Source: Terriglobia bacterium
GTDB taxonomy: Bacteria; Acidobacteriota; Terriglobia; UBA7540
Assembly (NCBI GenBank): GCA_030042795.1
Contig: JASHYZ010000420.1
Location: 1-6,498, forward strand
Reading direction: 5' to 3'
Length of the DNA: 6,498 nt
The position numbers were made by a program, and so were the translations under genes. The notes under the pieces are model-generated. The model was not told the origin of the DNA. It was given only the letters and a program-made list of their open reading frames with translations, and searched no databases. This document shows positions 3,342 through 5,957 of this stretch, piece by piece. Positions within the stretch are counted from its first letter, which is position 1. Each line of letters opens with the position of its first letter.

Positions 3342-3824
3342 ATGGTAACCGGAGTTTACAGAAAAGCCGGCTTGGCGTTGATTGCCACGCTCGCGATGGC
3401 GGCCGGAACACTTGGGGCGGCCAACCCCATCTACGACGAGAGCGCGGACGCGCATCAGCAGATCGCGGCCGCGATGGCCCAGGCTTCGCGCTCGGGCAAG
3501 AACGTGGTGCTCGACTTCGGCGCCAACTGGTGCGGTGACTGCCACGCCCTTGACGCCCAGATGCGCTCGCCAGCGCTTGCCAGTTTGGTGGAAAAGAACT
3601 ACGTAGTAGTCCACGTCGATGTCGGCCGCATGAACAAGAACGTAGACCTGGCGCAGAAGTATGGCATCCCGCTCAGCAGGGGTATTCCCGCTCTGGCCGT
3701 GCTTAACTCGCATGGCAAGCTACTCTTCTCTCAAGATCAGGGCCAGTTCGAAGATGCCCGTCACCTTAGCTCCGACTCGTTCAAGCAATTCTTCGAGCAG
3801 TGGAGGCCGAAGGCGTTCAATTAA
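3342..3824 (+). CDS. Exported thioredoxin-family protein with WCGDC motif
   Basis: The 160-residue protein has a signal peptide ([16 protein letters not shown], cleavage probably after Ala26 or Ala27) and a thioredoxin fold. [13 protein letters not shown] (residues 55-67) gives the redox pair Cys64 and Cys67 in a CGDC motif, followed by HALDAQM; GIPAL (114-118) supplies the cis-proline (Pro116) opposite the active site. The Asp between the cysteines is unlike classical CGPC thioredoxin and resembles thioredoxin-like domains of the thioredoxin_7/DUF255 sort. It probably reduces or exchanges disulfides on periplasmic proteins; partner and direction are unknown. I chose the ATG at 3342 because AAGGGAG (3331-3337) precedes it well; an in-frame upstream start at 3318 would add eight residues before the signal peptide without a ribosome-binding site. 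It lies 112 bases after rlpA in the same direction. Its TAA overlaps the mnmG stop. Confidence 0.9.
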
Positions 3825-5884
3825 GCTGAAGCCCGTTCCATTGCCCGCCGCTGAAAGATTTCAATATAGACGTTCACCAGGCTGACGGCGGCCGGCGTGA
3901 TGCCGGGGATGCGCGCGGCCTGCCCGAGCGTCAGCGGCTTCACGCGGGTAAGCTTCTCCACCACCTCGCGTGAGAGCCCTGACACCTGGCGGTAATCAAA
4001 CCAGTCCGGAATGCGCCGGGTTTCCGCGCGTTTCATGCGCTCGATCTGCCTCTCCTGCTGCGCCAAATATCCCTCGTACTTGAAGCCGGTCTCCACGCGC
4101 AGTGCTTCTTCGCGGGCGAAGAGACACGGTGCGGCATTATCTCCCTCCAGCGAACCTTGCTCGAGGGAGCCGCCGAGCGGAGACAGCCCCTGGCCCGCCA
4201 ACTCTTGGTTCACCCATTCAATCAAGTCCTGGATTGACACCTCAGGCCGCTTCAAAAGCTGCGCGCCGTTGAGTGGAGCGGACCCCGTGAAGCGGTCGCC
4301 TGCCAGCATGCCGAGCTTCGTGTACACCGCGCGGCCCACGGGCGTCTCAGGATCGAGCCGTGTTTCCAGCAGAAACCGCGTAGCGGCTGAAATGCGTTGC
4401 TGCTTCTCAAGATACGCTTCGTAGTCCGCCTTACGAATCGTTCCGGCCGCGTAAGCCAGAGGAGTAAGCCTCTCGTCAGCGTTGTCAATCCGCAGGTGCA
4501 GCCGGAACTCAGCCCGCGAGGTGAACATGCGATAAGGCTCGTCACAGCCTTTGCTCACCAGATCGTCGATCAAGATGCCGGTGTAACCTTGGGTCCGTTC
4601 GATCACGAGCGGCTCGCGTCCTTGAACACGGAGTCCCGCATTGATGCCGCCCATAATGCCCTGGCAGGCCGCCTCCTCATAACCCGTGGTGCCGTTGATC
4701 TGCCCCGCCAAAAAAAGGTTTTCAATCTTCTTAGTCTCTAGCCACGGCGTCAGTTCGGTGGGCTGCACCATGTCGTATTCGATGGCGTAGCCGGGCCGGA
4801 TCATATCCGCCTGCTCGAGGCCTGGAATCGAGCGCACCATAGCCCATTGCACGTCGATGGGCATGGAGGTGGACATGCCGTTCACGTAGATTTCGTTCGT
4901 GTCCAGGCCCTCGGGCTCCAGAAAGATCTGGTGTTGAGCCTTGTCGGGGAACTTCACCACCTTGTCTTCGATCGACGGGCAATAGCGCGGTCCGAGGCCC
5001 TTGATCTGGCCGGAATAGAGCGGCGAGCGCTGCATGTTTTGCCGCAGCACCTGGTGTGTCTCGGCGTTCGTGTAAGTGATCCAGCAAACCGTTTGCGGCT
5101 GTGTGATAGCACGGGTGCGGAAGCTGAAAGGCGTCGGAATGCGATCGCCCGGCTGTACCTGAAACGGCGTGAAATCGATCGTCCGGGCGTCGAGTCGCGG
5201 CGGCGTCCCGGTCTTCAGGCGCCCGATTTCGAATCCGAGCCTGCGCAGCGCCTCGCCAAGCATCACCGCAGGCGATTCGCCGGAACGACCGGCCGCGTAC
5301 GTTTCTTCCCCGCAGTGAATCAAGCCGTTCAGAAAGGTACCGGTGGTAATCACCACCGCGACCGCTTCCACGGTGCGGCCGTCGCGCAGCTTGAGGCCGC
5401 AAACGCGGTAAGCGCGGCCCTTGCCGTCGCCCCGGGCAGGCACAAGGCCTGCCCCTACGTCCCGCGTGGCCGCGGCGGGTACCCTCTCCAGCACTAAATC
5501 GACCACCTCGGCCTGCTTGATCCGCAGGTTAGGCTCAGCCTCCAGCACCTGCCGCATCTTCATGCGGTAGAGCTTCTTATCGGCCTGCGCCCGGGGCGAC
5601 CAGACGGCCGGCCCGCGGCTTGTGTTCAGCAGCCGGAACTGGATGCCGACGGCGTCGATCACCTCGCTCATCACGCCGCCCAGCGCATCGACTTCGCGCA
5701 CGAGATGTCCCTTGGCGACGCCGCCCACCGCAGGGTTGCATGACATTTGGGCAATCAGGTCAAGGTTCATGGTATAGAGTGCGGTGCGCAGCCCCATGCG
5801 AGCCGCCGCCACGGCCGCCTCGCATCCGGCGTGACCGGCGCCCACCACCGCCACGTCATAGTTTTCGGTGAATCTTGCCGTCAT
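3821..5884 (-). CDS. mnmG: tRNA uridine-5-carboxymethylaminomethyl modification enzyme MnmG (GidA)
   Basis: MnmG works with the GTPase MnmE to install carboxymethylaminomethyl or aminomethyl groups at C5 of wobble uridine in several tRNAs, using FAD, NADH and methylene-tetrahydrofolate. The 687-residue product shows the FAD dinucleotide motif [12 protein letters not shown] (13-24), MSCNPAVGG (47-55), [17 protein letters not shown] (87-103), and both GidA signatures, [11 protein letters not shown] (298-308) and [17 protein letters not shown] (393-409). The C-terminal MnmE/tRNA-binding helical domain has KYEGYL (602-607), DYRQVSGLS (630-638) and [11 protein letters not shown]. Cys49 and Cys302 match the conserved cysteines 47 and 277 of E. 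coli MnmG. It is about 58 residues longer than the 629-residue E. coli protein, mainly through two insertions (residues about 134-157 and 561-597) described separately. The start is the ATG at 5884, with TTGAGG eight bases upstream; a TTG at 5917 would add eleven residues outside the family. mnmE is not adjacent within this window. Confidence 0.97.
4142..4171 (-). repeat. Short tandem repeat in mnmG encoding [10 protein letters not shown]
   Basis: Two imperfect 15-base units, read on the - strand, encode residues 572-581 (GSLEQ then GSLEG). The same DNA contains CTCCCTC (4141-4147) and GAGGGAG (4163-4169), an inverted repeat. It lies in a linker before KYEGYL that is about 27 residues longer than in E. 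coli MnmG, so this is probably a locally expanded surface loop. Confidence 0.55.
5414..5482 (-). repeat. REP-like palindromic element inserted in frame in mnmG
   Basis: On the + strand GGGCAGGC (5434-5441) and GCCTGCCC (5447-5454) form an exact 8-bp stem with loop ACAAG; the coding strand begins GTAGGGGCAGGC. Translated in the mnmG frame it gives VGAGLVPAR (residues 143-151). I recall GAGLVPAR as a recurring peptide produced where this palindromic repeat is translated in environmental bacteria; this is memory, not a search. The stretch falls between two beta-strands of the MnmG domain (VVDLVLE and VCGLKLRDG), where E. coli has a tight turn; from VVDL to GTF there are 58 residues here against about 34 in E. 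coli. The limits given are approximate; the palindromic core is 5432-5459. Confidence 0.75.
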
Positions 5885-5892
5885 TTGTGAAG

Positions 5893-5898
5893 CCTCAA
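5893..5898 (-). promoter_or_regulatory. Ribosome binding site deciding the mnmG start
   Basis: TTGAGG on the - strand ends eight bases before the ATG at 5884. It favours that ATG over the in-frame TTG at 5917, whose extra residues belong to the upstream antitoxin remnant rather than to MnmG. Confidence 0.65.
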
Positions 5899-5916
5899 AT
5901 TCGCCATTTCTGCTCA

Positions 5917-5957
5917 ACTCTCAGGGGTCTGCGAGAGTCCTTATCTCCGCGAGGAGA
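5917..5957 (-). other. Two small adjacent hairpins in the mnmG leader region
   Basis: ACTCTC (5917-5922) pairs with GAGAGT (5933-5938) around a 10-base loop, and TCTCC (5944-5948) pairs with GGAGA (5953-5957) around GCGA, or UCGC when read on the mnmG strand. Both stems would be in the mRNA leader if mnmG is transcribed from upstream of 5957. They lie within the antitoxin remnant, so they may be accidental. Confidence 0.3.

Follow-up and report, generated by a model that had tools for sequence, protein, structure and literature searches.

The window, by which we mean the whole 6,498-nucleotide stretch of Terriglobia DNA that was analysed, carries on its minus strand an open frame assigned to mnmG (gidA) by its matches to Pfam GIDA (E 4.3e-168) and NCBIfam TIGR00136 (E 1.2e-242). 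The features referred to below are as follows.

3821..5917, minus strand: mnmG (gidA), an open frame of 698 codons, listed with a TTG start; translation may in fact begin further downstream.
5396..5497, minus strand: loop 1, the variable stretch as used for the counts, residues 141–174, between EVVDLVL-E and LKLRDGR; ends approximate.
5408..5458, minus strand: whole REPIN, 51 nt or 17 codons, residues 154–170.
5434..5458, minus strand: left REP, a GTAG tag with a perfect 8-bp hairpin and 5-nt loop, read from GTA GGG as VGAGLVPA.
5408..5432, minus strand: right REP, inverted and decayed, with a TTAC end where the intact L132 copy has CTAC; read GDGKGRAY (from the doublet alignment).
About 4094..4225, minus strand: loop 2, a second variable stretch at about residues 565–608, without a GTAG hairpin in the window copy and with REPs in some relatives.

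On the minus strand, positions 5458–5434 read GTAGGGGCAGGCCTTGTGCCTGCCC, in which the GTAG tag is followed directly by the perfect 8-bp stem and its 5-nt loop; this is the sole GTAG hairpin with a stem of at least 6 bp within the window. The original prediction had noticed this stem inside mnmG and had described it as a REP-like insertion tolerated in frame, and on these points it holds: the mnmG frame stays open through the palindrome, and the hairpin forms the intact left half of an inverted doublet whose right half has decayed. The hairpin had been located correctly, but the real element is longer, a 51-nt doublet that matches an intact REPIN in L132, another open frame, from the relative G004 (blastn, 54 nt, 85%, E=8e-12). 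A recount of the residues from VVDL to GTF inclusive gives, as stated earlier, 58 in the window against 34 in E. coli MnmG, and of the 24 extra residues the REPIN encodes 17, while the remaining 7 are other loop filler. The predicted RNA fold energy by itself is unremarkable, at -31.5 kcal/mol (z -1.79), a value that 10 of 200 shuffles also reach, and an Rfam search returned no family at E≤1. The word "exapted", which had been applied to the palindrome, is not supported, since the analysis shows no function for the insert. Elsewhere in the window, just past a galT-like gene, a perfect 14-bp inverted repeat with a 3-nt loop (2528–2558) may be terminator-like or a dispersed palindrome. With ≤3 mismatches allowed, no match to its core was found in the pool of related DNA described below (739,597 bp), and a looser pattern finds 3 similar palindromes among all loci.

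By alignment, loop 1 corresponds to the turn that follows VEDLIVEN in the E. coli protein, near residues 130–135 after removal of an inferred 20-residue tag. It falls in the FAD-binding domain (100–160), outside the MnmE contacts named in the available text of PMC12397908, and loop 2 is part of the helical domain, where it sits between the contact patches named there. Loop 1 would probably form a surface loop.

The repeat is dispersed in relatives, as had been anticipated. With ≤3 mismatches, the palindrome of the window family (family A) was found in 4 of the 10 genomes searched, most often in the nearest of them (G004 26 sites, G003 7, G006 6 and G008 1); the remaining 6 genomes and the backwards control gave 0. 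A degenerate pattern with ≤2 mismatches is present in 23 of the 40 genomes that represent the order. The MnmG of G004 is 87% identical to that of the window; in the nearest listed homologue, P0003 (92% identical), the position of the right REP reads GDHKGRPY. Across the order, the DNA of loop 1 contains seven types of stem:

Stem A, GGGCAGGC: window and G004.
Stem B, GGGAGGGC: G003, G026 and G024.
Stem C, CGCCGGC: G013, and in tandem with B in G024.
Stem D, GGGCGATTC: G023.
Stem E, GGGCGCAGC: G027.
Stem F, GGGCACA: G025 and G033.
Stem G, GGGCGCATCG: G038.

Most of these families are multi-copy in the genome that carries them in mnmG: family B has 19 copies in G003, 21 in G024 and 28 in G026, family C 12 in G013, family D 25 in G023, and family E 9 hits at 8 sites in G027. 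Backwards controls gave one match (G020) in the family C search and 0 in the other pattern searches. Own-genome matches of families F and G are confined to mnmG (two in G025, one each in G033 and G038). The two matches in G025 lie in one gene, the mnmG of L059, where nearly the same 28-nt palindrome stands in both loops (G025:C243:10106-10133 and 8852-8879) as that genome's only two sites, as if one copy had seeded the other.

Comparison of MnmG relatives at the insert gives a mixed result for the idea of an added segment that close relatives lack: several do have short loops, but many have a comparably long loop made of other REP families or repeat-like peptides. Among 120 of 121 proteins, the residues ahead of the GTF motif differ widely in number and content, the remaining one not fitting the extraction pattern. 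Nor is the insert in the window a single, isolated insertion, as had been implied; the site is a hotspot, filled in many relatives by other families. Among 38 mnmG genes, perfect GTAG hairpins with a stem of ≥7 bp occur 16 times in loop 1, 6 times in loop 2 and 0 times elsewhere. Loop 1 is covered in 37 genes; 11 of these have at least one such hairpin in it, and the other 26, several of which have short loops, lack one. Of 39 mnmG matches, G022 and G006, which do not reach loop 1, were left out, and L071, which starts at residue 171, is not counted among the 37; the 37 genes are not fully independent, as L057 and L058 share the same loop, as do L070 and L078, and G035 gave two genes. This G035 metagenome-assembled genome (MAG) holds two different mnmG genes (L054 and L072), through contamination or duplication.

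Control tags in the same genes gave few hairpins: one with GATG in loop 1 and two outside the loops, one with GAGT in loop 2, and none with GTGA or GAAG; GGTA, which overlaps GGTAG, gave 5 in loop 1, 1 in loop 2 and 1 in the rest. For background density we used a pool of further DNA from the order (739,597 bp), cut from contigs with REP, RAYT or mnmG matches and therefore non-random; this choice of DNA should raise its REP density and thus render the comparison conservative. Relative to the pool, GTAG hairpins are about 78 times as dense in loop 1 and about 14 times in loop 2, and the rest of mnmG holds 0 against 4.0 expected (P 0.018). Chance formation of the hairpin is rejected by the control tags and these densities. 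When whole mnmG genes were searched against the pool by blastn, matches at E≤1e-3 were confined to the two loops (loop 1 in 7 genes, loop 2 in 6), and outside them the best match had E 0.002. The pool itself has 48 GTAG hairpins (7 to 18 for each of five control tags) in 35 clusters; of these, a strict in-gene filter retains 4, and 3 appear convincing. This corresponds to an in-gene rate of 3 in about 740 genes, a figure that assumes one gene per kb and depends on the filter. In loop 2, GTAG hairpins occur in L049, L059, L069 and L076, and REP-like peptides in P0062, P0077, P0064, P0051, P0054 and P0052. Filling of the loops by REPs alone was considered and rejected, since they also hold other repeat-like peptides. 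Several REP families thus occupy one site of MnmG, which is a multi-family insertion hotspot of which the window shows one case.

In 9 of 9 genes with a GTAGGGG tag in loop 1 the tag is read GTA GGG (VG), and the GTAAGGG of G033 follows this phase too; in G013, the C type is read as nGT AGC, in another phase. Of the three phases, one is closed by TAG and another is open yet unused. The constant GTA GGG phase may reflect tolerance of small-residue peptides or shared descent.

The contents of the loop cluster on the MnmG tree, yet turn over fast. When loop labels were placed on a 154-row tree (none 64 rows, C 25, E 14, H 12, D 11, B 11, A 10 and FG 7), at least 56 changes were required, against a mean of 84.1 for shuffled labels, with 0 of 200 shuffles as low. 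These changes are not a count of insertions, as recombination, decay and peptide labelling contribute to them; the labels are our own peptide patterns, and proteins without a locus were labelled from the peptide alone. The tree (IQ-TREE quick mode, LG+G4, the two loops removed) leaves 51 of 146 inner branches open; it omits P0001, which is identical to the window, the row of the window locus, and L071, L077 and L078, and the rows of L073 and L076 were shortened at frame loss, with stops written as X.

Nearly identical enzymes can carry different loops. Outside the loops, P0075 (label B) and P0119 (label D) differ at 4 aligned residues, 3 of which lie within 12 residues of loop 1, on both sides, and P0062 (C) and P0077 (FG) are 98.7% identical. 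Among 35 pairs with different labels, 96 of 461 differences fall ≤12 residues from loop 1, as compared with 15 of 162 in 32 same-label pairs and 5 of 70 in 21 same-loop pairs (Fisher P 0.0008, a value that is not reliable because pairs share rows). Such near-identical proteins with different loops, and the differences that flank the loop, suggest that a short tract carrying the loop may have been exchanged by recombination, as far as these pairs of protein sequences can tell. A single ancestral insertion that merely diverged is disfavoured by the unrelated stem types with copies in their own genomes and by the near-identical proteins with different loops.

We also examined the site outside the order. 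In a class-wide search, mnmG matches at E≤1e-100 were found in 125 of 161 genomes, and 44 further loci (4 returned as loci, 40 fetched) were inspected. The loop was found in all 44 of these loci from other orders, and a GTAG hairpin in loop 1 in none; L153 has three GTAG hairpins, at positions taken as beyond the gene. Loop 1 ranges in these orders from short turns to long loops, with peptides such as HPERSE (L156), RCARDD (L151), KLETG (L160), STVDR (L180) and RRHGGTE (L184), which are repeat-like and may be dispersed repeats, and with a 9-bp hairpin in L162. Loop 1 thus seems to tolerate filler in general, REPs being the filler in some lineages. REP peptides also stand in frame in Ser/Thr kinase-like frames, identified by eye (L014, L016, L018, L019, L027, L105 and L110). 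At one kinase-like site, after MEL.EG.TL, family B occurs in two frames of L135 (12402-12450 and 15428-15476) and family A in L027 and L105. Many of the other REP sites in this survey lie in no clear gene.

Candidate movers are common in the order: PF01797 is found in 35 of 40 of its genomes, against 5 of 14 control genomes. A GTAG hairpin lies near the gene at 10 of the 24 PF01797 loci scanned, a sample in which 12 loci were hand-picked, five of those for nearby REPs. Families B or C adjoin RAYTs in G003, G044, G022, G036 and G034; no family A copy was found within about 2 kb of the RAYTs of G004 and G006 (L091–L096). Two of the G004 RAYTs, L091 and L093, have five and six GTAG hairpins of their own, which differ from the mnmG family.

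Based on these observations, we consider it likely that REP copies of multiple families survive in two tolerant loops of MnmG, where they decay and are swapped. More specifically, we propose that: (i) the insert is a translated REPIN, a GTAG-tagged palindrome doublet that is non-autonomous and whose kind is presumably mobilised in trans by RAYT (TnpA-REP) proteins, placed in a length-tolerant turn of the MnmG FAD domain; (ii) several multi-copy REP families in the order would supply copies that land in mnmG; (iii) a copy would survive only if the frame is kept, the TAG inside GTAG is avoided and the fold is undisturbed, conditions that loop 1, and less often loop 2, would satisfy; (iv) surviving copies would serve as presumably neutral peptide filler that decays, as in the right half of the window element, and may stand in tandem with other repeats; and (v) strains would swap loops, probably through homologous recombination over short tracts. 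Against this account stand the own-genome matches of families F and G, which occur only in mnmG, the lack of a family A RAYT among those found, and the non-GTAG peptides that loop 1 also holds.

A bolder version would make loop 1 a cassette site, into which palindromes are inserted in a preferred frame and exchanged faster than the enzyme changes, and whose selfish-DNA peptide or mRNA hairpin may modulate decoding or be what a partner recognises; we give this a small chance. It is similarly unlikely that loop 1 is a true insertion target, in the sense that the machinery prefers its DNA and survival is not the sole filter. The roughly 78-fold hairpin density and the single codon phase of all nine GTAGGGG tags would fit such a preference, but different REP families and non-REP repeats occupy the one place, their left flanks vary in length and sequence, and a second loop and another type of gene also take REPs. 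We regard as improbable a selected function, whereby the mRNA hairpin or added peptide would be useful for expression, folding or partner binding and palindromes would interchange because any hairpin suffices. Recurrence of a hairpin at one place while its sequence changes, in a constant codon phase, would favour this; however, the 26 of 37 genes without a perfect GTAG hairpin, several of them with short loops, the decayed right half in the window and the 44 hairpin-free loci of other orders speak against it. An artefact of metagenome assembly at repeats, which the MAG and metagenome sources and the two mnmG genes of the G035 MAG might suggest, is very improbable, as the element is short, the frame continues into the right gene, single loop sequences recur on several contigs (P0119 on 34, P0087 on 7) and P0003 comes from four sources.

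The reading of the insert as a translated REPIN places it among known elements. GTAG REPs and REPINs (BIMEs), with their RAYT/TnpA-REP genes, are described as mostly extragenic in the available text of PMC3116915 and PMC8266576. The present element resembles them in its inverted doublet, its many copies in relatives and the RAYT genes of the same genomes, some of which are REP-flanked; it differs in that the MnmG copy lies inside a coding frame, no RAYT with family A was found, and mobility is here putative. Intragenic REPs have been surveyed in PMC3733652, whose main text reports in-frame REPs and dimers in conserved genes and different REPs at about one recB site in X. campestris and X. oryzae. 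MnmG is alike in both respects, but here a single site takes seven stem types across one order, and proteins that are almost identical carry different families; gidA or mnmG is not named in that main text. In-frame REPs also occur in tnpA-REP genes between the HuH and Y motifs, a variable peripheral region by the authors' model (PMC6006769, as far as its available text describes them); both cases keep the frame, there in the transposase gene itself and here in a host tRNA-modification enzyme.

Rickettsia, which the original prediction offered as an example of the few bacteria with palindromes inside genes, is a valid precedent, but such palindromes are known well beyond it, according to the texts available for PMC3733652 and PMC6006769. 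The intragenic R. conorii repeats are described in the main text of PMC3733652 as CGTC-tagged or as the longer RPE-1. Like the MnmG insert, Rickettsia palindromic elements are translated in frame within conserved genes (PMC3733652, main text); unlike them, the insert is from another phylum, and bears GTAG where RPE-4 and RPE-6 have CGTC. No RPE model is among the NCBIfam matches listed for five MnmG proteins. In the open-licence literature, taken without the supplementary list of PMC3733652, we found no description of REPs in mnmG, and a case in mnmG may be in print; nor did that literature yield a mention of the VGAGLVPA peptide, or of a Rickettsia palindromic element together with gidA. A REP within a gene is thus already known, and the novelty lies in how far it goes at a single site, in the enzyme concerned and in the turnover seen between proteins that are nearly identical; the earlier interpretation as a whole is partly supported.

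The mnmG genes of this order provide a natural series, in which many palindrome families stand at one place of a conserved enzyme and relatives without them are at hand. This series makes testable the survival of translated selfish DNA, the location of tolerant loops, selection on the frame, and the speed of REPIN movement and recombination. In such genomes, loops encoded by repeats can mislead indel markers, gene trees and annotation.
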